A stretch of DNA of 64,000 bases from Amorphoplanes digitatis (GTDB taxonomy: Bacteria > Actinomycetota > Actinomycetes > Mycobacteriales > Micromonosporaceae), in NCBI RefSeq assembly GCF_014205335.1, contig NZ_JACHNH010000001.1:4086501-4150500 (forward strand), written 5' to 3'. The number at the start of each line of letters is the position of its first letter. Position 1 is the stretch's first letter. Of this stretch, positions 36,238-54,401 are shown piece by piece. A program made the position numbers and the translations under genes. Under the pieces are notes generated by a model, which saw only the letters and a list, made by a program, of their open reading frames with translations, ran no database searches and was not told where the DNA came from.

Positions 36238-37011
36238 ATGAGCATTCTGCAGGCACTCGTGGCCGGGATCAGCGGTGGGTCCATCGCCGTCGTCGACCTC
36301 ACCGCGCCGCTGTCCAGCCGTACCCCGATCCTCAGGCTGCCGGAGCCGTTCGCCGACACGGCGACCTTCAGCCTGGAGGAGATCAGCCGGTACGACGACC
36401 GCGGGCCGGCCTGGTACTGGAACAACATCCACACCGGCGAGCACACCGGCACCCATCTGGACGCCCCGGTGCACTGGGTCACCGCCAAGGACGGCGAGGA
36501 CGTCTCGCAGATCCTGCCGCGGCGGCTGGTCGCGCCGGCCGCGGTGATCGACGTGGCGGACCGGGTCGCGGCCGATCCCGACTTCCTGCTGGAGGTCGAT
36601 GACGTACGGCGGTGGGAGGCGGCGCACGGGCCGTTGCCGGAGGGCGGCTGGCTGCTGCTGCGTACCGGATGGGACGCCCGGTCCGGCGACCAGGAGGCGT
36701 TCCTCAACGCCGACGAGACCGGCCCGCACACCCCCGGCATCTCGGTCGAGGCGGCGAAGTGGCTGGCCGAGGAGGCGCCGGTGATCGGCGTCGGCGTGGA
36801 GACGGTCGGCACGGACGCCGGTGCCGCGCACTCGTTCGACCCGCCGTTCCCGTGCCACACGTTCGTGCTCGGCGCCGGCAAGTACGGGCTGACCCAGCTA
36901 CAGAATCTCAACGAGCTGCCGCCTACCGGCGCCGTGCTGATCACCGCACCCCTGCCGATCGTCGGCGGTTCCGGCAGCCCCACCCGGGTCCTCGCCCTCA
37001 TCGAGCGATGA
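36238..37011 (+). CDS. Cyclase-family metal-dependent hydrolase
   Basis: 257 residues. The cyclase (kynurenine-formamidase-like) signature HTGTHLDAPVHW (His69, His73, Asp75, His79) binds the divalent metal; IGVGVETVGTDAG and HTFVLGAGKYGLTQLQNL further fit the family. Known members hydrolyse N-formylkynurenine, isatin or cyclic amides and esters. The stop overlaps an ATG in a 17-bp tandem repeat leading to the ThDP enzyme gene, so the two are translationally linked. Membership in the fluorometabolite locus is possible but unproven. Confidence 0.87.
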   Translation: MSILQALVAGISGGSIAVVDLTAPLSSRTPILRLPEPFADTATFSLEEISRYDDRGPAWYWNNIHTGEHTGTHLDAPVHWVTAKDGEDVSQILPRRLVAPAAVIDVADRVAADPDFLLEVDDVRRWEAAHGPLPEGGWLLLRTGWDARSGDQEAFLNADETGPHTPGISVEAAKWLAEEAPVIGVGVETVGTDAGAAHSFDPPFPCHTFVLGAGKYGLTQLQNLNELPPTGAVLITAPLPIVGGSGSPTRVLALIER

Positions 37012-37046
37012 CCGAGGCCGAGCGATGACCGAGGCCGAGCGATGAC
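37003..37046 (+). repeat. 17-bp tandem repeat creating ATGA-coupled mini-cistrons
   Basis: GAGCGATGACCGAGGCC occurs at 37003-37019 and 37020-37036, with a 10-base third copy at 37037. Each copy holds an ATG. Those at 37008 and 37025 open six-codon frames (MTEAER) that end in TGA overlapping the next ATG; the third ATG (37042) starts the ThDP gene. The cyclase stop TGA (37009-37011) overlaps the first ATG. Confidence 0.9.
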
Positions 37047-38679
37047 GGCGACCGTCGCCGAGGTGGTCGGCGCGACGCTGGCCGGCCTCGGCGCCGACCA
37101 CGTCTTCGGTGTCGTCGGTAGCGGCAACTTCCACGTCACCAACGCGCTGGTGCGGCACGGCGCGCGGTTCGTCGCCACCCGCCACGAGGGCGGCGCGGCG
37201 ACGGCGGCCGACGCGTACGCCCGGGTCAGCGGGCGCGTCGGCGTTGTCACCGTGCACCAGGGTTGCGGGCTGACCAACGCGATGACCGGCATCACCGAGG
37301 CGGCGAAGAGCCGCACGCCGATGCTGGTCCTCGCCGCCGAGCCGGCGGCCAGCGCGCTGCGGTCGAACTTCCGGGTCGACCAGGACGCCCTGGCCCACGC
37401 GGTCGGCGCGGTGAGCGACCGGGTACACCGGCCGGACACGGCGGTCGCCGACACCGTGCGGGCCTGGCGTACCGCGGTGGGGCAGCGCCGGACCGTCGTG
37501 CTCAACCTCCCGCTCGACATCCAGGGCGCGCCCGCGGAACCGGGCGTACCCCAGGATCAGCTCGACGTGCGGCAGCCGCGCGCGTCCGACGAGGCGGTCA
37601 CGGACCTGGCCGATCTGCTCACCCGCGCGCGGCGCCCGGTCTTCATCGCCGGCCGCGGCGCCCTCGACGCGCGGGCGGAACTCGAGACGCTCGCCTCGGC
37701 CTGCGGAGCGCTGCTGGCCACCTCGGCGGTGGCCAAGGGACTGTTCGCCGGCAACCCGTGGAGCCTCGACGTGTCCGGCGGCTTCGCCACACCGCTGGCC
37801 GCCGAGCTGATCGGCGCCGCCGACCTGGTCGTGGCCTGGGGCGCGTCGCTGAACATGTGGACCACCCGGCACGGCGCGCTGCTCGGTGCCGGCGCCACGG
37901 TGGTCCAGGTCGACCTCGACCCGGCCGCGCTGGGCGCCCACCACCGCGTCGACGCCGGCATCGTCGGCGACGCCCGCACCAGCGCGCTCGCGGTGCGCGC
38001 CGCCCTGCCGGGGGAGAGCGCCGGCTACCGCACCGCGGAGGTGTCGGCCCGGCTGGGCGCCGAGGGGCGGTGGCGGGACGTCGCGTACACCGATGACGGC
38101 GACGGCTCGCACATCGACCCGCGCACGGCCAGCATCGCGCTCGACGACCTGCTTCCCGCCGAGCGGGTGGTCGCGGTCGACTCCGGCAACTTCATGGGGT
38201 ACCCGTCGATGTTCCTGTCCGTGCCGGACCACCGCGGCTTCTGCTTCACCCAGGCGTTCCAGTCCATCGGGCTGGGACTGGCCAGCGCGCTCGGTGCGGC
38301 GCTGGCCGCACCGGACCGGCTGCCGGTGGCCGCGTGCGGCGACGGCGGCTTCCTGATGGGCATCGCCGAGCTGGACACCGTACGGCGGCTCGGGCTGGGA
38401 ATGCTCGTGGTGGTGTACAACGACGACGCCTACGGCGCCGAGGTGCACCACTTCGGCCCCGCCGGGCATCCGCTCTCCACCGTCGTCTTCCCCGAGACCG
38501 ACCTGGCCGCGATCGCCCGTGGCTACGGCTGCGAAGCGGCGACCGTCCGGCGGGACGGCGACCTGGCCCCGGTCGCGGACTGGGTGGCCGGCCCGCGCCA
38601 CGTGCCGATGGTGGTCGACCTGAAGGTCTCCGCGGGCCGCCCCGCGTGGTGGCTGGAGGAGGCGTTCCGGGGACACTGA
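37042..38679 (+). CDS. ThDP-dependent enzyme (acetolactate-synthase/benzoylformate-decarboxylase superfamily)
   Basis: 545 residues with three domains. The PYR domain has catalytic Glu49 in ATRHEGGAATAADAYA; the central domain includes RRPVFIAGRGALDARAELE; the PP domain has the ThDP/magnesium motif GDGGF (Asp434) to NDDAYG (Asn460). The superfamily decarboxylates 2-oxo acids or ligates the activated aldehyde to another carbonyl. The specific reaction cannot be read. It follows the cyclase gene through overlapping start/stop codons and converges, one base apart, on the fluorothreonine transaldolase gene. A role on fluoroacetaldehyde or a 2-oxo acid is speculation. Confidence 0.87.
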   Translation: MTATVAEVVGATLAGLGADHVFGVVGSGNFHVTNALVRHGARFVATRHEGGAATAADAYARVSGRVGVVTVHQGCGLTNAMTGITEAAKSRTPMLVLAAEPAASALRSNFRVDQDALAHAVGAVSDRVHRPDTAVADTVRAWRTAVGQRRTVVLNLPLDIQGAPAEPGVPQDQLDVRQPRASDEAVTDLADLLTRARRPVFIAGRGALDARAELETLASACGALLATSAVAKGLFAGNPWSLDVSGGFATPLAAELIGAADLVVAWGASLNMWTTRHGALLGAGATVVQVDLDPAALGAHHRVDAGIVGDARTSALAVRAALPGESAGYRTAEVSARLGAEGRWRDVAYTDDGDGSHIDPRTASIALDDLLPAERVVAVDSGNFMGYPSMFLSVPDHRGFCFTQAFQSIGLGLASALGAALAAPDRLPVAACGDGGFLMGIAELDTVRRLGLGMLVVVYNDDAYGAEVHHFGPAGHPLSTVVFPETDLAAIARGYGCEAATVRRDGDLAPVADWVAGPRHVPMVVDLKVSAGRPAWWLEEAFRGH

Positions 38680-38680
38680 G

Positions 38681-40573
38681 TCAGGCGTTCGCGGTCGCGT
38701 GCAGCGCCTTGGCCAGGGTGGCGAGCAGTTCGCTCCCCTCCTCCAGCGAGGCGCTCCAGAGCACCAGGCCGTGCCGCCGGACGTAGATGAGCCGGCTCTT
38801 CCGGGCCGCCTCGGCGACGGATTCGGCGAGCTGGACGCTGCCGTACTCCTTGGGCGGGATGACCAGCACGTCGAACCGGCTGAGCTCCTGGTCGTCGGGG
38901 ATGTAGTGGTTGTGCACGACGAAGGCGGCGTCGACCGTGGTACGCATCAGGTAGTGCATGTACGACTCGGCGGACGGCGTGCCGGTGCCGCGGCACCGCA
39001 GCGTGGTGCCGGTGCGGGCCTCCAGCTCGACGAAGTCGGCCGGTCCCAGGTCCCGGATGTAGGCGCCGGTGGCGGTGACGAAGGTGCTGCCGTCGCGCTG
39101 GAAGCTGATGTTTCCCGCCGAGTCGGTCTGGTGCTCGAAGACACCGGCGAGCCGGCCGAGTGACCGGGCACCGTCGAACGACCGGTGATCGATCTCGATG
39201 GGCTCGCGGCGCAGCTGGATGTCGGCCCAGCGCGGTGCGGCGACAGGGGTGGAGGGTGCCGCCGGCCGGCCGATGGCCGCGGTGCCGCCGATCCTGGGCA
39301 CCGCCTCCGTCACGAGCCCGTGCTCGGGCTCGCAGTACTTGATCTGATTCCGGGAGCCGACCAGGTCGGCGACGGCCAGCGAGATCGGTCCCGGGTCCGC
39401 GTCGTGCAGCAGCAGTTGCGCCAGCCAGTCCGCCACGAGATCGAAGTCCGCGTTCGTGAACCCGCGCCGCACGACCTCCTGTACGCCGAGGCGCATCGTG
39501 TCGGTCTGCTCGAACGCCACGGAGCGGTTGACCGCGATCCCGGCCCGCAGCAGCCGTTCCAGCAGGGCCGGGCCGGCGCCGAGCGGCCGGTTGTCGATGA
39601 AGGACATGTGGTTGCGGGTGAAGCCGCGGTCGGCGGCGATCATCGGTACCCCGCGGTCGTGCAGGGCTGCGGCCAGATACCGGGAGCTCTCGACGACCCG
39701 GCTGGCGTATTCGCGGCCGTGGAAGTACATCTCGTGCAGGGCGATGAACAGCGCGAGCGTCGAGGCGGTGTGCTGGCTGCTGACCATGCCGTTGGACAGG
39801 GTGTAGCTGATCCGTTCCATCAGCCCCCGGCTGTTGCCGAGAATGATGCCCTTCTGCGGTCCGAACATCGTCTTGTGGGTGTTGGCCTGAAGGATGTCGG
39901 CGCCCTCGGCGAGCGGGTTCTGGAACTGGCCGCCGGCGATCAGCCCGAGGGTGTGCGAGGCGTCGTAGACCAGCGGCACGTCGCCGCACATCTCCTTCAG
40001 CTCGCGCACGGGGAAGGGGAACAGGTAGTTCATCGCGTCCAGGAACAGCAGCGTGGGTCGTTCGGCCTCGAAGACCTCCCGGGTGCGGTCCAGGTCGATC
40101 TCGGAGAGGTCGCGGTAGGCGTACGTGCAGCTGCGCCGGCCGAAGGAGCGGCAGATCAGCTCGGTGAGGAAATGGCCGCCGTCCTTTGTGGAAATGCGCA
40201 TGATCTTCTCGCCGGGCTGGGACAGCGCGGCGAAGGTCGTCTGCATCGCGTGGATGCCGGAGAGGCACCGGAACTCGGCGTAATCGGCGCCGAAGAGTTG
40301 CCGGCAGACCTCCGTCGCGGACGCCTCGATCGCGTTGACGCCGTTCATTCCCCGGTAGAGGAAATTGTTCAGCCGCGACGGCGAGTCCTCGCGCATCTCC
40401 AGGTGTTCCAACAGGTACCGGTTTCCGAGTGGGGTGGACAGCACCCGTTGCGCCGCCGGTGACGGCAGCGTCTCGTTGGCGGTCAGGTGGAGAACGGCGG
40501 CCGACTCGATTTCTTCCTGTTCGATCAGTCGGCTTATCCGGGCGAGCGTCATGGGTTGCTGTGCTGAGGACAT
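38681..40573 (-). CDS. fthA: Fluorothreonine transaldolase-like SHMT/class II aldolase fusion
   Basis: 630 residues, close to the characterised Streptomyces enzymes. The N-terminal two-thirds is a serine-hydroxymethyltransferase-like PLP fold: LLFLDAMNYL, Asp204 in VYDASHT and Schiff-base Lys234 in NTHKTMFGPQ. From about residue 455 a class II aldolase/adducin domain follows, with Glu536 in TPSAES, His554/His556 in VVHNHY and His601 in VRRHGLVLW, a complete catalytic and metal set. The known reaction swaps acetaldehyde of L-threonine for fluoroacetaldehyde, giving 4-fluorothreonine. It is divergent from mtnA. The symbol follows the S. cattleya fluorothreonine genes; specificity is inferred from the fusion and its fluorinase context. 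Confidence 0.85.
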   Translation of the reverse strand: MSSAQQPMTLARISRLIEQEEIESAAVLHLTANETLPSPAAQRVLSTPLGNRYLLEHLEMREDSPSRLNNFLYRGMNGVNAIEASATEVCRQLFGADYAEFRCLSGIHAMQTTFAALSQPGEKIMRISTKDGGHFLTELICRSFGRRSCTYAYRDLSEIDLDRTREVFEAERPTLLFLDAMNYLFPFPVRELKEMCGDVPLVYDASHTLGLIAGGQFQNPLAEGADILQANTHKTMFGPQKGIILGNSRGLMERISYTLSNGMVSSQHTASTLALFIALHEMYFHGREYASRVVESSRYLAAALHDRGVPMIAADRGFTRNHMSFIDNRPLGAGPALLERLLRAGIAVNRSVAFEQTDTMRLGVQEVVRRGFTNADFDLVADWLAQLLLHDADPGPISLAVADLVGSRNQIKYCEPEHGLVTEAVPRIGGTAAIGRPAAPSTPVAAPRWADIQLRREPIEIDHRSFDGARSLGRLAGVFEHQTDSAGNISFQRDGSTFVTATGAYIRDLGPADFVELEARTGTTLRCRGTGTPSAESYMHYLMRTTVDAAFVVHNHYIPDDQELSRFDVLVIPPKEYGSVQLAESVAEAARKSRLIYVRRHGLVLWSASLEEGSELLATLAKALHATANA

Positions 40574-40664
40574 GGGTGATCTCCCGCGTTCGCCGATATT
40601 GCCTGCGAATCTATGGGAGGCGATCGGATCGCACAGGTGGGCGCCCGAGCGAAGAACGAAGAGT

Positions 40665-40689
40665 GCACCATTGATGTATCCGGTGGTGC
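40665..40689. promoter_or_regulatory. Inverted repeat between fthA and mtnA
   Basis: GCACCA (40665-40670) and TGGTGC (40684-40689) form a 6-bp dyad with 13 bases between. It lies inside the 191-base divergent promoter region of the transaldolase and isomerase genes, 75 bases before mtnA. It could be an operator for a locus regulator; this is only a sequence pattern. Confidence 0.35.
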
Positions 40690-40764
40690 GACTTAGCTCC
40701 GATGCCGGGCGACCGCGCTGTGAACCATCATGGGACGCCCATGGGCGACCGGAAGGTGACCATC

Positions 40765-41766
40765 ATGCGCGCGATCGACTGGCGGGACGACGCGGTCGTC
40801 ATCATCGATCAGACCCTGCTGCCGGAGCGGACGACCCGGGTCGTGGTCCGCGAACCGGCACAGTTGGTCACGGAGATCAGGCGGCTGGCGATACGCGGTG
40901 CTATGGCGCTCGGCGTGGCGGGGGCCATGGGCGTAGCGCTCGGTGCCGTACGCGCCCGGGAACGCGGGGCCGACGTCCTCGCCGCGGCGACCGACGCGTG
41001 CGCCCTGCTGGCCGGCGCGCGCCCGACCGCGATCAACCTGGCGTGGGGCGCCCAGCGGGCGCTGGCCGCCGCGCCGGACGGCGCCGCGGCGGTGGTCGCC
41101 GCCGCGCTGGCGTTGCGCGACGCCGACATCGCGGCCAACCGGGCCATCGGCCGGCGCGGCGCGGATCTGCTGGACGGCGCCCGGCGGGTGCTGACCCATT
41201 GCAACACCGGAGCGCTGGCGGCCGTCGAGATCGGCACGGCGGTGGGCGTGATCGCCGAGCTGCACCGGCGCCGGCCGCTGACCATGGTGTACGCGACGGA
41301 GACCCGGCCGCTGCTGCAAGGTTCCCGGCTGACCGCCTGGGAACTGGGCAAAGCCGGGCTGCCCCATCGGATCCTGGTGGACGGTGCCGCGGCCGGCCTG
41401 ATCCTGGCGGGGGAGGTCGACGCCGTGGTGGTCGGTGCCGACCGGATCGCGGCCAACGGCGACACGGCCAACAAGGTCGGCACGGTGGCGCACGCGCTCG
41501 CCGCGGCACGGGCCGGCATCCCGTTCGTGGTGGCCGCGCCCGAGGCGACGTTCGCGGCGACGACGTACACCGGGGCCGAGATACCCATCGAGGAGCGGCA
41601 CGAGGACGAGGTGCTGTTCGTGGGTTCGCGCCGCGTCGCCCCGCCCGGTACGCGGGCGAGGAACCCCGGCTTCGACGTGACGCCGGCGGACCTGATCACC
41701 GCGGTCGTGACGGAGCGGCGGGTGCTGCCGCTGGGCCGCGCCGTCGCCGGCGCGGCCGCTCGCTGA
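40765..41766 (+). CDS. mtnA: MtnA-type aldose-1-phosphate isomerase (5-FDRP isomerase candidate)
   Basis: 333 residues from ATG 40765 with GGAAGG upstream. It matches S-methyl-5-thioribose-1-phosphate isomerase: RGA (44-46) phosphate loop, catalytic Cys146 in THCNTGAL and Asp226 in VGADRIAANGDTANKVG. MtnA opens and isomerises a 5-substituted ribose-1-phosphate to the ribulose-1-phosphate. In fluorometabolism the same chemistry converts 5-fluoro-5-deoxyribose-1-phosphate, the FlB product. No mtnK, mtnB, mtnC or mtnD gene is nearby, and its neighbours are fluorothreonine genes, so a dedicated fluorosugar role is likely. Its end lies 25 bases from the convergent deacylase gene. Confidence 0.9.
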   Translation: MRAIDWRDDAVVIIDQTLLPERTTRVVVREPAQLVTEIRRLAIRGAMALGVAGAMGVALGAVRARERGADVLAAATDACALLAGARPTAINLAWGAQRALAAAPDGAAAVVAAALALRDADIAANRAIGRRGADLLDGARRVLTHCNTGALAAVEIGTAVGVIAELHRRRPLTMVYATETRPLLQGSRLTAWELGKAGLPHRILVDGAAAGLILAGEVDAVVVGADRIAANGDTANKVGTVAHALAAARAGIPFVVAAPEATFAATTYTGAEIPIEERHEDEVLFVGSRRVAPPGTRARNPGFDVTPADLITAVVTERRVLPLGRAVAGAAAR

Positions 41767-41790
41767 GGGGCGCACCGGCGGACGCGGGCG

Positions 41791-42294
41791 TCAGGGTGCC
41801 GGCGTGTTCTCCGCGGCGATGGGCTCGAACCGGGGATCCGCGATGCGCAGGTAGTCCTCGGTGCGCAACGCCATCGATCGATCCAGGCGTGCGGCGTTGA
41901 AGAAGAGCTCGGGGAAGGCCTTGATGCCGGGGTCGGCGATGAGTTCCAGCTCGTCGCTGAAGGTGAAGGGCAGGATCGTCCCGGCGACGCAGCCCGAGAG
42001 CCGCTCAGCGATCTCCGGGTTGGCGAAGGAGATGTACGTGCCACCGAGCAGGCCCTTGATCGCCTGGAGGTCGACCCGCGCGTCTCCCGGCACGACCGCC
42101 AGCACGTACTTCGTGACCTTCTTGCCGAGCTTGACCATGACGATCATGCACTTCGCGGCGGCCGCGACCTCGTGCCCGCGGTAGCCGCTGACGATCTCCG
42201 TGCGTCCCTCTTCCGCGTGGTCGATCAGCCGGTATGTCGCCTCGTGCCGATCCAGTAGGTCGATCAGCCGGTCGTAGGTTTCCGCGTATTCCAT
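41791..42294 (-). CDS. fthB: YbaK/PrdX-type aminoacyl-tRNA deacylase, fluorothreonyl-tRNA editing candidate
   Basis: 167 residues from ATG 42294 (AGAGGA ribosome site). The fold is the YbaK/EbsC trans-editing domain: IVSGYRGHEVAAAAKCMIVM with the conserved Lys48, LAVVPGDARVDLQAIKGLLG, and the late glycine/Pro-Phe loop GCVAGTILPFTF. These enzymes hydrolyse mischarged tRNAs. Streptomyces cattleya has a freestanding deacylase (FthB) that removes 4-fluorothreonine from tRNA-Thr, encoded with a transporter next to the transaldolase. The same arrangement here supports that role. It is divergent from the EamA exporter. Confidence 0.8.
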   Translation of the reverse strand: MEYAETYDRLIDLLDRHEATYRLIDHAEEGRTEIVSGYRGHEVAAAAKCMIVMVKLGKKVTKYVLAVVPGDARVDLQAIKGLLGGTYISFANPEIAERLSGCVAGTILPFTFSDELELIADPGIKAFPELFFNAARLDRSMALRTEDYLRIADPRFEPIAAENTPAP

Positions 42295-42335
42295 TCGGCG
42301 TCCTCTCATGGTGTCCACTGTCGCCGTTCAGCATA

Positions 42336-42363
42336 GTACACAATTTCGGCCATTATATTGTAC
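42336..42363. promoter_or_regulatory. AT-rich dyad in the fthB/fthC divergent promoter
   Basis: GTACACAAT (42336-42344) and ATTGTAC (42357-42363) form an imperfect inverted repeat within an unusually AT-rich stretch (CATTATATTG). It lies midway between the divergent deacylase and exporter genes. It is a candidate promoter/operator, perhaps for the XRE/cupin regulator encoded after the exporter. Confidence 0.45.
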
Positions 42364-42419
42364 GGTGGCTCTTCCGCCTTACGGGTTCGGCGGCACCACA
42401 GAAAGGTGAATAGCGGATC

Positions 42420-43505
42420 ATGAACAAGTCCACGGGGGACCGATCGCGGCCGACAACTGATATCAGAATTCCACTGCCCCGGCAGCCTGTCCGCCCCGTC
42501 GTGGGCCGCGCGTCGCTGCTCCGCTCCGACCTCTCCATCCTGCTGGTCGCCGTCATCTGGGGTTCCAGCTACGTCGTGATGCAGGACGTGGGTGACAGGG
42601 TGCCGGCCGCGGCGTTCCTCGCCCTGCGATTCCTCACCGCGCTCCCGGTCGTGTTGCTGCTGGCCGCGCCGTCGCTGCGCCGGCTCAACCGGGTGGAGGT
42701 GCTGGCCGGCGCCGGGTTCGGCGTGATGCTCTACGGCATCCTCATCCTGGAGACGGTCGGCGTGCAGCACACGTCGGCGGCCAACGCCGGGTTCCTCATC
42801 ACGGTCTCGGTGGTGTTCGTCCCCGTGCTGGAGCGGATCCTCAGCCGCAAGGCCCAACCCTTCATCGTGTACGCGGCCACGGTCGTCGCCCTGTTCGGCT
42901 GCGGGCTGCTGTTGCTCTCCGGCGGCCTGCACCCCCGATCGGGTGACTTGATCATCCTGGCCGCCGCGGCGATCAGGGCCACCCAGATCACCCTCTTCGG
43001 CCGGCACGTGCACGGCCAGTCGATCCAGAACCTCACCGTCGTCGAGTTCGTCGTGGTGATCGTGCTCGCCTCGCTCACCTCCGTGTTCACCGGCGATCCG
43101 GTGTGGTCCGCGGCGGGACAGGTCGACGGCCGCTCGTGGCTGCTGATCGCCTACCTGGGCGTGCTGGGAACGGCCTTCGCCTTCTTCATGCAGCTGCGGT
43201 CCGCCCGGCTGTCGAGCTCCACCCGGGTGGGGCTGATCCTCTGCACCGAGCCCGTCTTCGCCACGATCTTCGCGATCGCCGTCGCCGGCGAGTCGCTGGG
43301 CTTCATCCAGGCGCTCGGCGGCGTGCTGATGGTCGGCTCGGCGCTGGTCGGCCGCGCGGCCGAGGCCTCCGGCCGGGCGGCGGGGGCGCCCCGCCCGATG
43401 GCCCTGACCTCGGGCCGGGAACCGATCGGGCCCGCAACCTACGACCCGGTAGTGTCGGGACACCTGTCCGACACTTCACCGTTGAATGGACGCCGTGACG
43501 AATGA
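42420..43505 (+). CDS. fthC: EamA/DMT-family exporter, fluorothreonine efflux candidate
   Basis: 361 residues with about ten membrane helices in two EamA repeats. The first starts LSILLVAVIWGSSYVVMQDV, and the second half contains WLLIAYLGVLGTAFAFFMQL and VGLILCTEPVFATIFAIAVA (the conserved Glu-Pro-Val-Phe motif). Drug/metabolite transporters of this type often export amino acids such as threonine. In S. cattleya an EamA protein (FthC) accompanies the fluorothreonyl-tRNA deacylase, as here. It probably lowers intracellular 4-fluorothreonine. The last 20 bases overlap the XRE/cupin gene, so the two are co-expressed. Confidence 0.85.
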   Translation: MNKSTGDRSRPTTDIRIPLPRQPVRPVVGRASLLRSDLSILLVAVIWGSSYVVMQDVGDRVPAAAFLALRFLTALPVVLLLAAPSLRRLNRVEVLAGAGFGVMLYGILILETVGVQHTSAANAGFLITVSVVFVPVLERILSRKAQPFIVYAATVVALFGCGLLLLSGGLHPRSGDLIILAAAAIRATQITLFGRHVHGQSIQNLTVVEFVVVIVLASLTSVFTGDPVWSAAGQVDGRSWLLIAYLGVLGTAFAFFMQLRSARLSSSTRVGLILCTEPVFATIFAIAVAGESLGFIQALGGVLMVGSALVGRAAEASGRAAGAPRPMALTSGREPIGPATYDPVVSGHLSDTSPLNGRRDE

Positions 43506-44103
43506 GAGTTTGGGGCCGCCCGCAGCCGGGATGGGAGCGGCGGTCGGCCGGGAGGTCCGCCGCTTCCGGGAGGCCCGCCAGATGTCGGTGTCCGAGCTGG
43601 CCCGCCGGGCGGGCGTGAGCAAGGGCACGCTGTCCAAGCTGGAGGCCGGCCTGGGCAATCCGACGATCGAGACGATCGCGGCCATCGCCGTCGCACTGCG
43701 ACTCACCCTTGGCGACCTCATTCCGACGTCGGCGCCGAACACACCCACCCTGCACCGCGGTACCCCGGAGCCGGACTACAGCCGGCAGGAGCTGTTGCAG
43801 CGCATCGGACCCGGCGTCCTGACCGAGATCTGGCGGGTCCGGATCCGGCAGGCCGGCGGCTTCGTGGAGAGCCCGCCGCACGCCGCGGGCACCGTGGAAT
43901 ACCTGCTGGTGAGCCGGGGCGTCTTCCGCGCGGGTCCGGCGGAGGGCCTGAGCGAGTTGCACGCGGGGGACTTCCTGGTCTTCCAGGCCGACGTGCCGCA
44001 CCGGTACGAGGTCGTGGAGGGTCCGGCCGAGGCCAGCCTCGTGATGACCTATCCCGCCATGAACGTGGGAGTCACCGCGGCCCTGCACCCCGCCGCCATC
44101 TGA
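43486..44103 (+). CDS. XRE-family regulator with cupin sensor domain
   Basis: 205 residues. The helix-turn-helix occupies about residues 18-70 (VGREVRRFREARQMSVSELA, RRAGVSKGTLSKLEAGLGNP). The C-terminal cupin (GTVEYLLVSRGVFRAG, LHAGDFLVFQADVPHRYEV) could bind a small ligand, and HRY retains a metal-ligand-like His. Its start lies within the end of the exporter gene, so it is translationally coupled to it. It probably senses an intermediate or product of the locus, such as fluorothreonine or fluoroacetaldehyde, and controls export and editing genes; that is inference from position. Confidence 0.85.
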   Translation: MDAVTNESLGPPAAGMGAAVGREVRRFREARQMSVSELARRAGVSKGTLSKLEAGLGNPTIETIAAIAVALRLTLGDLIPTSAPNTPTLHRGTPEPDYSRQELLQRIGPGVLTEIWRVRIRQAGGFVESPPHAAGTVEYLLVSRGVFRAGPAEGLSELHAGDFLVFQADVPHRYEVVEGPAEASLVMTYPAMNVGVTAALHPAAI

Positions 44104-44224
44104 CCTGGTGCAGGCCGGGATGTATCGAACGTCGTAGCTGAATACGACCTCCGACGCGTTACCTGAACGTCACTTGCCGATAACAATGGGTGGTAGGCGT
44201 TGTTCCGTGACAACGGAGGTGGCG

Positions 44225-44896
44225 ATGCCCGCGGCACAGACGATCGAGGTTCCCGTGGTGCGTCGCGGCCACCATTCCCATCCGCGCCGGGGCGCCTGCC
44301 TCATGGAGCTGGTGAGCACCCTTACCGGCGGGCCGTGGACCGACCGGCCCGGGCGCGTCCATCCGATGCTGGCGACCGTGTGCCGGGCGGTCAACGACCG
44401 GCTCGGCGATGCCGGCCGGGCCGCCGTGCTGACCGCGGTGCCGTGGCTGGAGCACACGGCGGCACCCGTGCCGCGCCGGCAGGCGGACGAGGTGCTGCGT
44501 GACGGCCTGCTCGAGCTGGCTGCCCGGCACGCGGGTGACGCGGCGCTCGCGGCCCGGCGCCCCGGGCAGCGGGCCGCGGCCGGCGCACTGCGACGGGCGG
44601 TCCGGCGGGTGGCGGCGCGCCCGGACCGCGACGAGGCGATGCGGCGATTCCTGTTCGAGGCGATCGACCTGGTCCGGGGCCACGCCGGCCTGCCGCCCGT
44701 GCCCGAGGGCCGGCCGATGTCGGTCGACGGCGTCGGGTGGCTGCCGGTGCGGGTCGAGGTCCGCTGTCCCGACGACGGCCTCTCGGCCTACCTGCACTGC
44801 ACCGCCGAACTGGACCGGTGGCCGGCCGAGCTGCGGCCGGAGCCCACGGCCCCGCGAGCGTCCCGCGACCGCCGCCCGGCGGGCCGGCCCGCCTAG
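44225..44896 (+). CDS. Conserved actinomycete protein of unknown function
   Basis: 223 residues from ATG 44225, with GGAGG five bases upstream. The hairpin CGTTGT-TCCGTG-ACAACG (44198-44215) abuts that ribosome site. The segment RRGACLMELVSTLTGGPWTD, followed by HPMLATVCRAVNDRLGD, resembles a widespread Streptomyces family of unknown role that usually starts with the G-ACLME-S motif. The tail is Arg/Pro-rich. No membrane segment or enzyme motif was seen. Its TAG stop lies within the first arm of a 22-bp inverted repeat, so an insertion may have fixed the present 3' end. Confidence 0.7.
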   Translation: MPAAQTIEVPVVRRGHHSHPRRGACLMELVSTLTGGPWTDRPGRVHPMLATVCRAVNDRLGDAGRAAVLTAVPWLEHTAAPVPRRQADEVLRDGLLELAARHAGDAALAARRPGQRAAAGALRRAVRRVAARPDRDEAMRRFLFEAIDLVRGHAGLPPVPEGRPMSVDGVGWLPVRVEVRCPDDGLSAYLHCTAELDRWPAELRPEPTAPRASRDRRPAGRPA

Positions 44897-45057
44897 GCCT
44901 GTCCTGCCGATCATGACGGCCTGCGCCGGGCCCAGCTTCCGCCTCGCGGCGCGGTCCGAACGGCCGAATACAACACCGGTATTCGACCGTCCGGCCCACT
45001 TGCGACGCGAAACCTGGACCTCGGCTCGGCGTCGCCATGATCGGCAGGACAGGCCTA
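44894..45057. mobile_element. MITE-like 164-bp element with 22-bp perfect terminal inverted repeats
   Basis: TAGGCCTGTCCTGCCGATCATG at 44894-44915 is exactly complementary to 45036-45057 (shown here only as ends and positions: starts TAGGCCTG, ends GATCATG). Both outer ends finish in TA, consistent with a TA target duplication of the IS630/Tc1 kind. The 120-base interior has no gene and contains an 11-bp near-dyad around GAATAC-AACACCG-GTATTC. It fills the gap between two convergent genes, contributing a stop codon to one and lying seven bases from the other. A non-mobile paired-arm structure is the alternative. Confidence 0.6.
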
Positions 45058-45802: not shown

Positions 45803-46275
45803 ACGCAGCCCCCAGAGATGGCTTCGCTACTCCGTGTCCGTGCCCGCGTTGGAGCTACTCACGTTTGTGGTAACGATTCGCGTCTTCATCGCCGCGCCGG
45901 GCGGGGGTCAGGCCCGCCGGCGCCGTGATGGCTATAGACGTCAGGGCCTATCAGGGAGCACCTCTGCACATGCCTCATGTCCGTCCCCCGTTTGATTTGC
46001 CGGTCCGCTCGCCGCGAAACATGCTGGGAAGCCGGCACTGATCCCGCCCCGATGCGGCTGCCCGGCTCCGACCGTCCGTTCAATATTGCGCACGGTACGG
46101 GCGTAAGTAAAGAGGCTTCCGATTGCTTGGATATCGGATCCCATATTGCGACGAACGTCGTAGCGGTAGGTGTTACGGCGGCCGGTCGACGTGGGTCTTT
46201 CCAGGTCGGCGCCGGTGCGTTTTCATCACTGTGGCCGGGTATCGGGCCCGGCATCGATCATGTCGAGGACGGTGG
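45803..46275. other. 473-base divergent intergenic region, LuxR gene / apt
   Basis: No convincing gene was seen: short frames here lack ribosome sites and coding bias. GC content is visibly lower than in flanking genes. It should hold the promoters of the response regulator and of apt. CGAACGTCGTAGC at 46152-46164 also occurs at 44126-44138, upstream of the unknown gene at 44225. An AT-rich patch (GATATCGGATCCCATATTG, 46131-46149) lies just before the shared motif. Confidence 0.5.
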
Positions 46276-46809
46276 ATGATGTTTACCGGAGTGAACATTG
46301 ATCTGAAATCCGCGGTGCGGGTCTATCCGGACTTCCCGACACCCGGGATCGCATTTCAAGATCTGGCTCCGCTGTACGGGACGCCGGGTCTGCTCGGGCG
46401 GCTCGGCGAGGCGCTGGCCAGGTCCTTCCCCCAGGGGTACGAGGTCGTCCTCGCGGTGGAGGCGCGCGGCTTCGTGATCGGTACGGCCGTGGCCATGGCG
46501 GCCGGTCGCCCCCTGGTCCTGGCCCGCAAGCAGGGCAAGCTGCCGGGGCCGCTGCACCGGACGGAGTACGCCCTGGAATACGGCTCCGCGGTGCTCACGA
46601 TCCAGCACGCGGCGGTGCCGCCCGGCGCGAAGGTCCTCGTGGTGGACGACGTGCTGGCCACCGGCGGCACCCTGGCCGCCGCCGCGCGCCTGGTCGAGGA
46701 GGCGGGTGCGGCGGTGTCCGGGTTCGGCGTGGTGCTGGACATCGAGGCGCTCGGTGCCCGCGCGCGGCTCGCGCCGGTTCCGGTCGTCTCCCTGCTGACG
46801 GCATCCTGA
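46276..46809 (+). CDS. apt: Adenine phosphoribosyltransferase
   Basis: 177 residues. The family signatures are VYPDFPTPGIAFQDLAPLYG near the start, AVEARGFVIGTAVAMAAGRP, and the PRPP-binding motif VLVVDDVLATGGTL. It converts adenine and PRPP to AMP. Apt is normally beside relA in actinomycetes; here it is 387 bases upstream of the fluorinase gene. FlB releases adenine from 5'-fluoro-5'-deoxyadenosine, so this copy probably removes and recycles that adenine. Start at ATG 46276 or the adjacent ATG 46279, behind GAGGACGG. Confidence 0.9.
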   Translation: MMFTGVNIDLKSAVRVYPDFPTPGIAFQDLAPLYGTPGLLGRLGEALARSFPQGYEVVLAVEARGFVIGTAVAMAAGRPLVLARKQGKLPGPLHRTEYALEYGSAVLTIQHAAVPPGAKVLVVDDVLATGGTLAAAARLVEEAGAAVSGFGVVLDIEALGARARLAPVPVVSLLTAS

Positions 46810-48093
<1,284 letters not shown>

Positions 48094-48101
48094 CTCCGCC
48101 C

Positions 48102-48135
48102 GAGGGCCGGCACGGATTCGTCCGTGCCGGCCCTC
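48102..48135 (+). terminator. Intrinsic terminator after fluorinase gene
   Basis: A perfect 15-bp stem (GAGGGCCGGCACGGA at 48102-48116; complementary arm 48121-48135) is closed by a very stable TTCG tetraloop. It lies eight bases after the flA stop and 57 bases before the antiporter start, so the antiporter needs read-through or its own promoter. Confidence 0.93.
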
Positions 48136-48192
48136 CTCTCGGACCGGGGTCGTCGCCGGGCCGCCGCCCACCGCTCGCACGAAGGGGACGTC

Positions 48193-49578
48193 GTGAGCCT
48201 CTCCTCCTACCAGGTAGCCACACTGATAGCCACGATCGCGATAGTCGTGCTGGTCTCGCACGCGGTCGGTGGCCTCTTCGCCCGCTTCCGCCAGCCCGTC
48301 GTGGTCGGCGAGATCCTCGCGGGCCTGATCTTCGGACCCACCCTGCTCGGACTGGTGGCGCCCGACATCCAGCACCTGCTGTTTCCGAAGACCGGACCGG
48401 TCGCGGCGGTCCTCGCCGGGCTGGCCCAGCTCGGCCTGCTGCTGCTGATGTTCATCACCGGTGGCGAACTGCGGCTGACCGGCGTCGCCCGGGATCGCAG
48501 GACCATCAGCCTGGTCACCGTCACCGGCCTGGTGTTGCCGTTCTCGATCGGGGTCGCGGTCGTCTCGGCGATCGACCACCGCGATCTCGCCGGCCCGGCC
48601 GGGACACAGACCACCACGATCCTGGTCTTCGCGATCGCGGTCGCGGTCACCAGCATTCCGGTGATCTCCCGGATCATGCTCGACCTCGGCCTGCTCGGCG
48701 GCTCGTTCGCCCGCATCGTGCTCGGGGTGGCGGCGCTGGAGGACATCGCGCTGTACGTGGTGCTCGCCATCGTGCTGAGCCTGGCGAGCGCGCCGGCGAC
48801 GGAGTTCGGCCTGTGGGACCTGATCGGCATACACACCACCGGCTGGACGGTGGGCTACCACACGGCCGTGACCGTGGTGTTCCTGACCGCCTTCATGGTG
48901 TGGGGCCCACAGGTCTTCCGCTACCTGCTGTACGGCCGGCCCGGGGTCCTCGCCCGGCGCAACGCGACGGCGTACCGGCTGGTGCTGCTGCTGATCACCG
49001 TGCTCCTCTGCACGATGCTGGGCATCAACCCGATCTTCGGGGCGCTGCTCACCGGGGTCTGCGCCCGCCGGGCCGAACCGGAGCAGGAACTGGACGGCTC
49101 GGCGACCGCGACCGAGCAGACCAACTCGTGGATCACCATCCGGCGCTTCTCGCTCGCCTTCTTCATTCCGATCTACTTCTTCACGGTAGGGCTCGGCCTG
49201 AACCTCGTGCAGGACTTCGACGTGCTCTTCTTCGCCTGGTTCTTCGCGCTCTGCTGCGTGGTGAAGGCGGCCAGCGTGCTGCTGGGCGCGGTCCTGGCCG
49301 GTGAGCGGCTGCGCTGGTCGATCGACCTCTCGATCGCCCTGAACGCCCGCGGCGGACCCGGGATCGTGCTGGCCACGACGACCCTGGCCGCCGGGGTGGT
49401 CAACCGCTCCTTCTACACCTCGATGGTGGTGCTGTCCGTCCTGACCTCGCTGATCGCCGGGATATGGCTGGATCGGCGGGCCACGGCACTGCGGCAGGCC
49501 GACCTCGAGAGAGCGCGGGACCCGAAGGTCCCGCAGGCCGTCACCGCGGGCGGCGAGCACGCGGGCACCGCCACCTGA
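48193..49578 (+). CDS. flH: Cation/proton antiporter (KefB/NhaA-type CPA2), FlH-like
   Basis: 461 residues from GTG 48193 (GAAGGGGA ribosome site), with about 12 membrane helices. The CPA2 signatures are RFRQPVVVGEILAGLIFGPT, LMFITGGELRLTGVARD, VAVAVTSIPVISRIMLDLGL, VLGVAALEDIALYVVLAIVL (with the transport Glu-Asp pair) and IALNARGGPGIVLATTTLAA. Known fluorometabolite clusters carry a Na+/H+ antiporter (FlH) next to the fluorinase; its role, perhaps pH or fluoride-linked homeostasis, is not proven. It is separated from flA by a terminator and converges on adoK. Confidence 0.88.
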   Translation: MSLSSYQVATLIATIAIVVLVSHAVGGLFARFRQPVVVGEILAGLIFGPTLLGLVAPDIQHLLFPKTGPVAAVLAGLAQLGLLLLMFITGGELRLTGVARDRRTISLVTVTGLVLPFSIGVAVVSAIDHRDLAGPAGTQTTTILVFAIAVAVTSIPVISRIMLDLGLLGGSFARIVLGVAALEDIALYVVLAIVLSLASAPATEFGLWDLIGIHTTGWTVGYHTAVTVVFLTAFMVWGPQVFRYLLYGRPGVLARRNATAYRLVLLLITVLLCTMLGINPIFGALLTGVCARRAEPEQELDGSATATEQTNSWITIRRFSLAFFIPIYFFTVGLGLNLVQDFDVLFFAWFFALCCVVKAASVLLGAVLAGERLRWSIDLSIALNARGGPGIVLATTTLAAGVVNRSFYTSMVVLSVLTSLIAGIWLDRRATALRQADLERARDPKVPQAVTAGGEHAGTAT

Positions 49579-49597
49579 CCACGGTGGGCGGCGGGGT

Positions 49598-49629
49598 CGG
49601 GACCGGGTGTCTGCGGGCACCCGGTCCCG
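49598..49629. terminator. Bidirectional terminator between flH and adoK
   Basis: A 12-bp perfect stem (CGGGACCGGGTG at 49598-49609; CACCCGGTCCCG at 49618-49629) with an 8-base loop lies in the 57-base gap between the convergent antiporter and adenosine kinase genes and can stop transcription from both sides. Confidence 0.88.
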
Positions 49630-49635
49630 GCTCGT

Positions 49636-50613
49636 TCACCAGCCGAGAACGGCGGCCGTACGCGAGGCGGCGGCCCGGCCGTACGCGGCCGTCAGCTCCT
49701 CGAGGAACCGGCCGCGGTCCACCTCGTACTCCTGGGGACCCACCGTGCGCAGGACCAGCGCGGCCAGCGTGCATCCCAGCCGGGCGGCCAGCTCGTAGTC
49801 GGCCCCCGCGTGCGCCGCGGCGAGGAACCCGGCCCGGAACGCGTCGCCCACGCCGGTCGGGTCGACGGGCTCGGGGACCGGTACGGCCGGTACCTGGACC
49901 GCCGGGCGGCCGGCCCGGTCGATGCGCGCCCCGCCCGGGCCGAGGGTCGTGACCCAGGTAGCGACCCGGGCCAGCACCTCGCGCTCGGTCCATTCCGTCT
50001 TCTGGAGCACCAGCGCGTGTTCGTAGGCGTTGGTGAACAGGAACTGGGCACCCTCGATCAGCCGGCGGATGTCCTTGGGCTCCATCACCGCGAGCTGCTG
50101 GGACGGATCGGCCGTGAACGGGTAGTCCCGGGCCCGGCACTCGTCGGTGTGCCGGAGCATCGCCTCGGGGTCGTTGGGCCCGATCACGATCTGGTCCACG
50201 CCGGCCAGCCGGTCGACGGTGTCCCGCAGGTCGAGCCCGCGGGCCAGGGACATGGCCCCGGCGTAGAACGAGGCGAGCTGGTTGCCGTCGTGATCGGTGA
50301 TGCACTGGAACCGGGCGGTGTGCAGCTCCTCCGACTGCCGGATCGAGGCCACGTCGACGCCGCCGAGTTCCAGCAGGGAGCGGTAGCCGGCGAAATCCTG
50401 TCCCGCGGCGGCGACCACGGCGGGGCGCAGGCCCAGCCGGGCCAGGCCGAGCGCGATGTTCGCCGCCACCCCGCCCCGGCGGACCTGCAGGGAGTCGACC
50501 AGGAAGGACAGCGACAGGTGGTCCAGCGCGCCGGGCACCAACTGCTCGACGAACCGGCCGGGGAAGGTGCTGAGCTGGTCGATCGCGATCGACCCGGTCA
50601 CGATGATGGTCAT
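49636..50613 (-). CDS. adoK: Adenosine kinase (PfkB family)
   Basis: 325 residues, closely following the mycobacterial adenosine kinase: start MTIIVTGSIAIDQLSTFPGR, then SLSFLVDSLQVRRGGVAANI, IGPNDPEAMLRHTDECRARD, PFTADPSQQLA and the catalytic anion-hole motif DPTGVGDAFRAGF. It phosphorylates adenosine to AMP with ATP. It is the last gene of the minus-strand set sahH-metK-adoK, ten bases after metK, so it removes adenosine made by SAH hydrolase and pulls that reversible step forward. Confidence 0.92.
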   Translation of the reverse strand: MTIIVTGSIAIDQLSTFPGRFVEQLVPGALDHLSLSFLVDSLQVRRGGVAANIALGLARLGLRPAVVAAAGQDFAGYRSLLELGGVDVASIRQSEELHTARFQCITDHDGNQLASFYAGAMSLARGLDLRDTVDRLAGVDQIVIGPNDPEAMLRHTDECRARDYPFTADPSQQLAVMEPKDIRRLIEGAQFLFTNAYEHALVLQKTEWTEREVLARVATWVTTLGPGGARIDRAGRPAVQVPAVPVPEPVDPTGVGDAFRAGFLAAAHAGADYELAARLGCTLAALVLRTVGPQEYEVDRGRFLEELTAAYGRAAASRTAAVLGW

Positions 50614-50623
50614 GGGTCGCGCC

Positions 50624-51811
50624 TCACCCGTGGACCGCGGCCTGGAGTTCGTTCACCCGGTCGAGGCGCTCCCAGGTGAACGTCGGACCGCTGCGGCCGA
50701 AGTGCCCGAAGGCCGCGGTCGGCAGGTAGATCGGGCGCAGCAGGTCCAGCTCCCGGATGATCGACTGCGGCCGCAGATCGAAGACATTGTCGAGGGCCGC
50801 CTCGATCCGCGCGATCGGCACCGTCTCGGTGCCGAAACACTCCAGGAAGGTGCCGACCGGCTCCGCCTTGCCGATGGCGTACGCCACCTGCACCTCGCAG
50901 CGCTCCGCGAGCCCGGCCGCCACCACGTTCTTGGCCACCCATCGCATCGCGTACGCGGCGGAGCGGTCCACCTTCGAGGGGTCCTTGCCGGAGAACGCGC
51001 CACCGCCGTGCCGCGCCGACCCGCCGTACGAGTCCATGATGATCTTCCGGCCGGTCAGGCCGGTGTCGCCCATCGGGCCGCCGATCTCGAACCGGCCGGT
51101 CGGGTTGACGAGCAGCCGGTAGTCGTCGACGCGCAGGTCGAGCTGGTGCAGCTCCGGCTCGACCACGTGCTTGCGGATGTCCTCGGGCAGCAGGGTGTCC
51201 GCGTCGGGCGCGTGCTGGGCGGAGACCACCACCGTGTCCAGCGACACCGGACGCGATCCCTCGTACGCGATCGTGACCTGCGTCTTGCCGTCCGGGCGCA
51301 GATAGCCGAGCGTCCCGTCACGCCGGGCCGTCGACAGACGGCGGGCCAGCCGATGGGCGAGGGCGATGGGCAGCGGCATCAGCTCCGGTGTCTCCGCGCA
51401 GGCGTAGCCGAACATCAGCCCCTGGTCGCCGGCGCCCTGCCGGGCGGCGCCCGCGGCGCCACCCTCGGTCCGTGCCTCGTACGAGCGGCTCACCCCCTGT
51501 GCGATGTCGGGGGACTGCCTCCCGATCGACACGCTCACGGCGCAGGTCCGCCCGTCGAACCCCTTGGCCGACGAGTCGTACCCGATGGCGTTGACCTGGG
51601 CGCGGGCGACGGCCGCGAGGTCGACGACGGCGCGGGAACCGACCTCGCCGGCGATGATGATCTGGCCGGTGGTCACGAGGGTCTCGACGGCCACCCGGCT
51701 GTGCGGGTCGCCGTCGAGATAGGCGTCGAGCAACGCGTCGCTGATCTGGTCGGCGATCTTGTCCGGATGGCCCTCGGTCACGGATTCCGAGGTGAAGAGC
51801 CGATAGCTCAC
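50624..51811 (-). CDS. metK: S-adenosylmethionine synthetase
   Basis: 395 residues from GTG 51811, chosen because GGAGGATC lies just upstream and the family start [20 protein letters not shown] follows; the frame opens 15 codons earlier. Other signatures are [23 protein letters not shown] (ATP site), [20 protein letters not shown] and [20 protein letters not shown]. It makes SAM, the fluorinase substrate, from methionine and ATP. Because fluorination returns methionine, this gene closes a local cycle. It is probably a second copy beside a housekeeping metK elsewhere; that cannot be checked here. Confidence 0.95.
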
Positions 51812-51884
51812 AGTGATCCTCCATGTCGGTTGCCGGGATGCGGAGACGGCCCCCAACCGAGGCTGAGGGCCGTCGCGGTGCCGA

Positions 51885-53324
<1,440 letters not shown>

Positions 53325-53504
53325 GGGCTCTCCCGGCAGAAAGGGGCCGGCGGTGACCGGCGCGGGCATTTCCAAGCTAGTGGCGGGCCGCAGAGCCGCA
53401 CAGACGAATAAATCGGCGAACAAAGCGGTACGAGAATCGCGACCAAAGGCGAATGCCGACTACCCTTTTCGTCAGCTCGACCGGACGGCCGGCGATGTTA
53501 GTTT

Positions 53505-53522
53505 CCTCCCGGCGACGGGAGG
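53505..53522 (+). promoter_or_regulatory. Hairpin sequestering the flB ribosome binding site
   Basis: CCTCCCG (53505-53511), tetraloop GCGA (GNRA type) and CGGGAGG (53516-53522) form a perfect 7-bp stem. The right arm contains the whole Shine-Dalgarno sequence GGGAGG, six bases before the flB ATG. Initiation should be blocked while it is folded, so it is a strong candidate for translational control. Confidence 0.75.
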
Positions 53523-53528
53523 CAAGAC

Positions 53529-54401
53529 ATGATCAACGCGCGAGGGGTCCGGCCGCGGATCGGCGTCATCGGCGGCAGCGGACTGTACGACCTCGACATG
53601 CTCGACGACGTCGAATCGATCGAACTGGACACACCGTACGGAAGCCCGAGCGGCAGCATCACTATCGGCACCCTGCGCGGCACCCGGCTGGCTTTCCTGC
53701 CCCGGCACGGCCTCGGGCACCGGCTCAGCCCGAGCGAGGTGCCCGCCCGGGCGAACATCTACGCCCTGTGCGAGCTCGGCGTCCGCCGGGTGTTCGCGAT
53801 CAGCGCGGTGGGCGGTCTCGCCGAACGCTACGCACCCGGCACCCTGGTCGTGCCGGACCAGATCGTCGACCGGACCAAGGGCCTGCGCCCCGCCACGTTC
53901 TTCGGCGGCGGCGTGGTGGCGCACGTGTCCATGGCCGACCCCTTCTGCCAACGGCAGCGCGAGCACCTCATCGCCGCGGCGAAATCCGCCGGGCACACCG
54001 ACGTGATCGACGGCGCGACGTACTGCTGCATCGAGGGCCCGCAGTTCTCCACCCGGGCCGAGTCCCACCTGTACCGCTCGTGGGGCCTGGACATCATCGG
54101 CATGACGGCGGTACCGGAGGCGGCACTGGCCAGGGAGGCCCAGCTCTGCTACGCCGGGCTCGCGCTGGTGACCGACTACGACTGCTGGCACGAGAACGAG
54201 GAGACCGTGACCGCCGACATGGTGGCGCAGACCATGCGCCGCAACGTCCGCGCGGCGCGGGAGGTGCTGGAGGAGGCGGTCGCCACCCTGGATCCGTCCG
54301 GCGACTGTGAGTGCCGCCATGCCCTCACCGGTGCCGTGCTGACCGACCCCACCCTGATCGCCCCCGACCGGCCGGACTCGCCCGGCCCTCCATCCTGCTG
54401 A
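53529..54401 (+). CDS. flB: 5'-fluoro-5'-deoxyadenosine phosphorylase (MTAP family)
   Basis: 290 residues. The purine nucleoside phosphorylase/MTA phosphorylase signatures are RIGVIGGSGLYDLDML, FLPRHGLGHRLSPSEVPARA, FAISAVGGLAERYAPGTLVV, CIEGPQFSTRAESHLY, IIGMTAVPEAALAREAQLCY and VTDYDCWHENE (purine-binding Asp). It cleaves 5'-FDA with phosphate to adenine and 5-fluoro-5-deoxyribose-1-phosphate, the second step after fluorinase. It could also act on methylthioadenosine. It is divergent from sahH; its ribosome site is hidden in a hairpin. It converges on a WD40 protein gene that ends the locus. Confidence 0.92.
   Translation: MINARGVRPRIGVIGGSGLYDLDMLDDVESIELDTPYGSPSGSITIGTLRGTRLAFLPRHGLGHRLSPSEVPARANIYALCELGVRRVFAISAVGGLAERYAPGTLVVPDQIVDRTKGLRPATFFGGGVVAHVSMADPFCQRQREHLIAAAKSAGHTDVIDGATYCCIEGPQFSTRAESHLYRSWGLDIIGMTAVPEAALAREAQLCYAGLALVTDYDCWHENEETVTADMVAQTMRRNVRAAREVLEEAVATLDPSGDCECRHALTGAVLTDPTLIAPDRPDSPGPPSC

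Follow-up and report, generated by a model that had tools for sequence, protein, structure and literature searches.

We analyzed 64,000 nucleotides of the Amorphoplanes digitatis genome (positions 4,086,501 to 4,150,500 of contig NZ_JACHNH010000001.1; "the window"), and we give coordinates as positions in the window. The genome is one contig of 9,128,557 bases. Judging from the sequences of its genes, positions 38681-54401 are very probably a self-protected locus for the biosynthesis of 4-fluorothreonine (4-FT). The activities of the enzymes, and the product, are predicted from characterized homologs. The original prediction was of a fluorinase-centered 4-FT locus in an Actinoplanes/Paractinoplanes genome, and the matches to equivalog families, a protein tree, and the gene set all agree with it.

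We begin with the fluorinase, FlA (5'-fluoro-5'-deoxyadenosine synthase; 47197-48093, + strand). The closest solved structures to this protein are the enzymes from Streptomyces MA37 and S. cattleya. It is identical to S. cattleya FlA (PDB:1rqp) at 232 of 292 aligned columns and to PDB:5b6i, which we take to be MA37 FlA1, at 235 of 291. It also matches NCBIfam's fluorinase equivalog, TIGR04507, with 599.3 bits (the cut-off is 400). As had been proposed, it retains the active site and the diagnostic loop of S. cattleya FlA. All 14 of the listed active-site residues, which bind S-adenosylmethionine (SAM) or fluoride and include Ser158, are the same as in 1rqp. (We took these residues from PMC3999930 and PMC9234330; here and below, a cited paper stands for the part of its text that was available.) The insertion loop (residues 90-111 of FlA) is present in all 12 fluorinase-group sequences that we compared (from the window, 10 other loci, and 1rqp) and is missing from all 7 DUF62 proteins. 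The C-terminal fluorinase motif RNAA (PMC12871659) is present as well.

In a tree of these 19 proteins, the 12 fluorinases part from the 7 DUF62 proteins with support of 100/100, so the window's protein does not group with the SAM hydroxide adenosyltransferases. (The bootstrap is unsettled, with 10 of 16 inner forks open, and we used this deep split alone. The panel and the tree omit L021, which is a short match, and the genome's other PF01887 protein, which is a separate paralog at 1.09 Mb.) By identity, motifs, equivalog, and tree, the protein is a fluorinase and not a SAM hydroxide adenosyltransferase. It is highly improbable that it is instead a chlorinase or a SAM hydrolase: these belong to the same superfamily (PF01887), and FlA itself can chlorinate (PMC9234330), but the equivalog match, the 14 residues, and the loop that the DUF62 proteins lack all argue for a fluorinase.

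We then considered the transaldolase (38681-40573, - strand). This 630-amino-acid protein is a 4-FT transaldolase of the NobM type, which combines a pyridoxal phosphate (PLP)-dependent transaldolase domain with a class II aldolase-like A domain in one chain. It matches TIGR04506 with 1118.1 bits (the cut-off is 650), has SHMT and Aldolase_II domains, and is 50-85% identical to five homologs (alignment A1). The PLP lysine, Lys234, is kept in 7 of 7 transaldolases. (The Actinopolyspora transaldolase, L025, is included in the seven-sequence counts but is outside alignments A1 and A2 for folding.)

By analogy to the characterized homologs, FlA would couple fluoride and SAM to give 5'-fluoro-5'-deoxyadenosine (5'-FDA) and methionine. 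FlB (53529-54401, + strand), a 5'-FDA phosphorylase of the methylthioadenosine phosphorylase family (PF01048, 157.2 bits; TIGR01694, 311.6 bits against a cut-off of 274.85), would phosphorolyze 5'-FDA to 5-fluoro-5-deoxyribose-1-phosphate and adenine, which would be salvaged by the adenine phosphoribosyltransferase Apt. An MtnA-type isomerase (40702-41766, + strand; TIGR00512, 348.9 bits against a cut-off of 279; 63% identical to the gene in the Nocardia brasiliensis locus) would convert the sugar phosphate to 5-fluoro-5-deoxyribulose-1-phosphate, which would next be split by an aldolase into fluoroacetaldehyde and dihydroxyacetone phosphate (DHAP); the candidates for this aldolase are the transaldolase's A domain and a housekeeping enzyme encoded elsewhere. 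The transaldolase would then transfer the glycyl unit of L-threonine to fluoroacetaldehyde, so that 4-FT forms and acetaldehyde is released. MetK would regenerate SAM, and AhcY and adenosine kinase would clear S-adenosylhomocysteine (SAH). SAH inhibits fluorinase.

MtnA is present in all 7 genomes with a transaldolase and in one of the three searched genomes that have a fluorinase locus but no transaldolase. (Among the four loci without a transaldolase, the one from Solihabitans, L013, is known only from 20.9 kb, and we omitted it from whole-genome counts.) Another MtnA is encoded at 9.07 Mb in the window's genome, which makes the copy in the cluster an extra one.

The locus also contains putative protection genes. 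An FthB-like protein (41791-42318, - strand; PF04073, 66.7 bits), with the YbaK/tRNA_edit fold, would deacylate mischarged fluorothreonyl-tRNA, and an FthC-like EamA protein (42420-43505, + strand; PF00892) would export 4-FT. We identified both as homologs by family and by co-occurrence. All 7 transaldolase genomes (including the window's; one was cut at the edge of the slice) have an FthB homolog within about 10 kb of the fluorinase, as against none of the four loci without a transaldolase. Because the FthB homolog tracks the transaldolase, the protection genes support our assignment of the product. The exporter has homologs (57-77% identity) in the fluorinase loci of five of the six other transaldolase genomes, but not in L012. 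Both fthB and fthC are highly conserved in 4-FT clusters (PMC7408626), and here they lie beside the pathway genes.

Some points weigh against a functioning 4-FT pathway. None of the cluster's genes is a separate aldolase gene. Apt, AhcY, MetK, and adenosine kinase have everyday housekeeping roles as well. And cultures of N. brasiliensis, whose cluster closely resembles this one, showed no new signal from an organofluorine compound (PMC3999930). N. brasiliensis also lacks flK (PMC3999930), and we found no match to PF22636, the FlK family, in its relative. Because N. brasiliensis gave no product in culture, expression is not assured, and by analogy the locus in A. digitatis may be silent.

Could the locus make fluoroacetate in addition to 4-FT, as S. 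cattleya does? Fluoroacetaldehyde is an intermediate common to both products, and actinomycetes commonly have aldehyde dehydrogenases. Also, both S. cattleya and MA37 make both compounds (PMC7408626). But the annotated genes of the cluster include neither an aldehyde dehydrogenase nor a dedicated flK. The genome's sole PF22636 gene lies at 6.68 Mb. We rejected its product as a dedicated FlK: the family is found in 67 of 67 genomes of the genus, of which 65 are fluorinase-free. Fluoroacetate production is thus plausible but not what we would expect. With no dedicated flK found, the locus looks 4-FT-directed.

We then examined the A domain (residues 448-630 of the transaldolase; 38684-39232, - strand) as a candidate aldolase. 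The structure model of this domain is good, with a predicted local distance difference test (pLDDT) score of 88.7, and it has the fold of the class II aldolase superfamily. (The full-length model is moderate, with pLDDT of 70.8 and a predicted template modeling score of 0.51, and the linker around residues 413-445 has low confidence.) The model aligns to residues 1-184 of the 206 residues of FucA. His554, His556, His601, and Glu536 align with FucA's His92, His94, His155, and Glu73, and they are invariant in all seven transaldolases. The positions corresponding to FucA's substrate site (Gly487, Asn488, Thr/Ser502, Gly503, and Ser534) are kept in all seven sequences as well, as is the position of the base (Glu536). 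In FucA, these five substrate-site positions have a role in phosphate binding.

The match to FucA is incomplete. FucA's Ser72 is not kept (the seven sequences have A, V, or T there). Also, E. coli FucA continues past residue 184 in a C-terminal tail, which holds Tyr209 and which the A domain does not have; the protein ends 29 residues after His601. For lack of this tail, we do not class the A domain as a true aldolase of the E. coli FucA kind. Nor is structural kinship enough to identify the reaction, because the matching structures also include superfamily oxygenases (POD and NovR), epimerase/decarboxylase-type proteins, and a dehydratase (APIP).

In the published model, the A domain only dehydrates the hydrate of fluoroacetaldehyde. 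The fluoroacetaldehyde itself would be supplied by a class II aldolase of the cell's housekeeping set, with its gene elsewhere. We consider this to be reasonably probable, for several reasons. First, the A-domain mutations H551A, H598A, and N484A cut transaldolase activity to 14.5, 18.1, and 27.7% (PMC7162832). These mutations impair the use of free fluoroacetaldehyde, and they include the asparagine that we take to be a substrate-site residue. Second, S. cattleya continues to make fluoroacetate when it lacks the transaldolase (PMC8072733), which means that this species has another aldolase. Third, the activity could come from a stand-alone FucA-like gene, which lies at 8.70 Mb in the window's genome and occurs in 63 of 67 genomes of the genus. 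The absence of FucA's tail and of Ser72 from the A domain also fits this model. However, it is not evident why a hydrate dehydratase would need the conserved substrate-site residues or Glu536. Furthermore, in two of the seven transaldolase genomes (G007, from Actinopolyspora mzabensis, and G009, a metagenome-assembled genome (MAG) of unknown completeness), the transaldolase gene is the sole PF00596 gene, apart from one long-frame open reading frame (ORF).

Alternatively, the transaldolase might be bifunctional. The A domain would cleave 5-fluoro-5-deoxyribulose-1-phosphate to DHAP and fluoroacetaldehyde and, before the aldehyde could become hydrated or escape, would pass it to the attached PLP domain. 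We suggest this tentatively and consider it rather unlikely. If the protein is bifunctional, then Glu536 (Glu533 in S. morookaense) is the predicted catalytic base for cleavage of the sugar phosphate. (Other key residues of the S. morookaense transaldolase coincide with the published numbers for MA37.) In the available text of the mutagenesis paper, Glu533 (MA37 numbering) is not named (PMC7162832). Catalytic residues are enriched among the invariant positions of the A domain (8 of 10 in the core, P = 1e-4; without the histidines, 5 of 7, P = 0.007), but this is descriptive only, because both models would have metal-binding and fold residues conserved.

In a limited literature search, which included the available parts of PMC7162832, PMC6079011, PMC6302742, and PMC11227584, we found no assignment of the cleavage to the A domain. 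The aldolase that yields fluoroacetaldehyde was still "putative" in a figure legend from 2024 (PMC11227584). The fold of the A domain and the positions of its catalytic residues are like those of DrdA and other DHAP-shunt aldolases, and DrdA cleaves 5-deoxyribulose-1-phosphate, which is the non-fluorinated analog (PMC6079011). Unlike DrdA, the A domain is part of a transaldolase fusion; DrdA and the A domain are 20% identical in a structural alignment, and the A domain's aldolase activity is putative. If the A domain is the aldolase that forms fluoroacetaldehyde, then the gap in the pathway closes. The cluster would be a DHAP shunt (phosphorylase, MtnA, and aldolase) that was repurposed for fluorine, and it would encode all of the steps from fluoride to 4-FT.

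Two other arrangements of these genes caught our attention. In A. mzabensis, a PF22636 gene adjoins the transaldolase and MtnA (G007:C19:221167-227180), and this MtnA is the only one in the genome. This is a clean genome for asking if the A domain is an aldolase, yet its 4-FT gene set has an FlK-family neighbor. And in N. brasiliensis (G006:C147:35780-37354) and in a Chloroflexi genome (G008:C201:7796-9476), MtnA is directly followed by a class II aldolase. These DHAP-shunt-like pairs are not on the same contig as the fluorinase.

The neighbors that the original prediction named (FlB, MtnA, the transaldolase-aldolase fusion, the tRNA_edit protein, EamA, the antiporter, and apt) are all present and intact. 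So is its SAM-cycle operon: ahcY and metK are there, and the third gene encodes adenosine kinase. In more detail, apt (46123-46809, + strand) matches NF002636 with 182.1 bits (cut-off 125). The match begins at residue 59, and the alignments of most homologs begin at residues 39-60; judging from these alignments, the true start is probably further in, near codon 50. The Na+/H+ antiporter-type transporter (48124-49578, + strand; PF00999, 132.2 bits) is putatively FlH/NobH-like, and 8 of 10 loci have a homolog within 10 kb of the fluorinase. Adenosine kinase (49636-50613, - strand) matches PDB:4pvv (E = 1e-92) and PDB:2pkf (E = 2.1e-92) across residues 1-323. It is followed, in order of coordinates, by the SAM synthetase MetK (50624-51856, - strand; PF00438/PF02772/PF02773) and by the SAH hydrolase AhcY (51885-53423, - strand; PF05221, 497.6 bits), which is of the FlI/NobI type and has homologs (73-86% identity) in 6 of 10 fluorinase loci.

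There are two putative regulators. The first (43486-44103, + strand; PF01381, with a match to Cupin_2 below the cut-off) is a helix-turn-helix-cupin protein, and its position and size suggest that it is FlF/NobF-like. Homologs (57-86% identity) are in L004, L006, L007, and L009. The second (45065-45802, - strand; PF00196 and PF00072) is a LuxR-type response regulator, probably FlG/NobG-like, with homologs in L004, L005, L006, L007, L009, and L013. Between them, 44104-45064 has no family assignment, and neither of its long ORFs matches Pfam. A 72-amino-acid segment, read on the + strand, is 69% identical to Paractinoplanes deccanensis; the rest of the stretch is unmatched, so conservation is partial.

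By gene conservation, the locus is bounded by 38681 and 54401. The left edge that was originally predicted, 36238, takes in a cyclase and a thiamine pyrophosphate (TPP) enzyme that are outside the conserved cluster. We considered this pair (36238-38679) as pathway genes and rejected it as an ordinary operon of the genus. The TPP gene is found in 30 of 67 genomes of the genus (including this one; E <= 1e-120), and the cyclase adjoins it in all six of the fluorinase-negative relatives whose DNA we compared. The TPP gene is missing from the only other fluorinase carrier in the genus. The pair is background. These six relatives share no other tested gene from the left or right flank (in 19.9-kb slices), so we did not identify an empty insertion site. 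To the right, directly after flB, is a 750-amino-acid WD40-repeat protein (54497-56749) with no match in the P. deccanensis locus. We also looked for a fluoride riboswitch: at the gathering threshold, Rfam's single match in the window is a c-di-AMP riboswitch (22235-22369, 85.7 bits), just upstream of a gene for an NlpC/P60 cell-wall hydrolase (22384-23373).

How does this locus compare to known clusters? In P. deccanensis NBRC 13994 (L004), whose fluorinase is 94% identical, all 13 of the genes tested, from the transaldolase to FlB, are in the same order and orientation; unlike in the window, the cyclase-TPP pair is not on the left. The nob cluster of N. brasiliensis (L009; PMC3999930) shares the fluorinase, FlB, the isomerase, the transaldolase, apt, AhcY, the antiporter, the permease, and the regulators. 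It differs in gene order and orientation, and MetK and adenosine kinase are unmatched in the 20.9-kb locus. We compared the fl genes of S. cattleya and MA37 via the literature: they share the fluorinase, FlB, FlI, FlH, and FlF/FlG-type regulators (names from PMC3999930). S. cattleya has flK (PMC3999930), and in this respect the window's cluster is not of the S. cattleya type.

The original prediction also held that fluorination and fluorothreonine genes, separate in S. cattleya, are brought together here. The contrast stands: in S. cattleya, the transaldolase gene is apart from flA (PMC8072733). But the joining is not novel. In N. brasiliensis, nobA, nobB, nobD, and nobM are within one 10-gene cluster (PMC3999930), and in MA37, unlike S. 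cattleya, the transaldolase gene is close to the fluorinase gene (PMC7162832). In our panel, five of the six other transaldolase genomes (N. brasiliensis and four that extend the published examples) have the two genes within 10 kb of each other. In the sixth, Actinopolyspora, they are on different contigs.

Another relevant strain is Actinoplanes sp. N902-109, in which a fluorinase locus was reportedly described by Deng in 2014 (cited in PMC3999930). It has the genus and a fluorinase in common with the window's genome, and if the two strains were the same, then our finding would be already known. N902-109 carries rapamycin genes (PMC9188914). We found no FkbO/RapK-type chorismatase in the window's genome, in a search with no positive control, and the genome's main polyketide synthase region (G000:C1:2204008-2305761, about 100 kb) has 20 ketosynthase domains on the + strand and one on the - strand. 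Rapamycin would need about 14. From these two observations, the window's strain is probably distinct from N902-109, as compared by published description.

Fluorinases are rare, as originally proposed. We found them in just 2 of 67 genomes of the genus. A pattern scan of a collection of 84,980 species identified 18 loci: 10 fluorinases (67-94% identity) and 8 DUF62 proteins (26-32%). The scan requires exact short peptides, so it can miss relatives. Among 396 genomes drawn from the phylum, the only one with the transaldolase equivalog above its cut-off was the window's own. We found no sign of carriage on plasmids: the 8 matches in a plasmid collection were all at DUF62 level (26-29% identity).

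Some of the other loci look quite different. In L011 (7848-16139), a Chloroflexi MAG and hence outside Actinomycetota, the fluorinase (71% identity) is near FlB, a short-chain dehydrogenase/reductase (SDR), a methyltransferase, an acylating acetaldehyde dehydrogenase, a DmpG-type 4-hydroxy-2-oxovalerate aldolase, a fumarylacetoacetate (FAA) hydrolase, and a cyclase. This is possibly another route from the fluorosugar. L012 (10001-18128), from a Proteobacteria MAG, has a compact arrangement of FlA, FthB, a 682-amino-acid ORF, the transaldolase, and MtnA, and then a resolvase/recombinase gene. (The ORF has no match in Pfam; by eye, it has a Walker-A-like GPGEGKS.) The compact set and the adjacent resolvase/recombinase suggest horizontal transfer.

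L005 (8199-14665; A. bartoniae), L008 (8979-14727; Actinoallomurus), and L013 (8146-14855) have no transaldolase gene near the fluorinase. Instead, they have a dihydroxyacid dehydratase (71-72% identical to L008's), an SDR (67-70%), and a YmdB-like phosphoesterase (65-67%), and two of them have a cyclase. This is a salinosporamide/fdr-type set, and the products may be of the 5-fluoro-2,3,4-trihydroxypentanoic acid (5-FHPA) type or fluoro-extenders. The fdr set of MA37 lies far from its fl cluster (PMC5947533). A limited literature search did not turn up a paper that is evidently about loci of this type.

Overall, this is a rare and well-preserved locus of an already known type. What could be new is that the C-terminal domain of the transaldolase conserves the active site of a class II aldolase, along with its glutamate. 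Biological formation of the C-F bond is very rare, and every new locus provides more enzymes for fluorine biocatalysis. Because this locus unites the route, self-protection, and SAM recycling in a single-contig genome, and because we found no dedicated flK, A. digitatis should be well suited to the question of whether 4-FT can arise without fluoroacetate.

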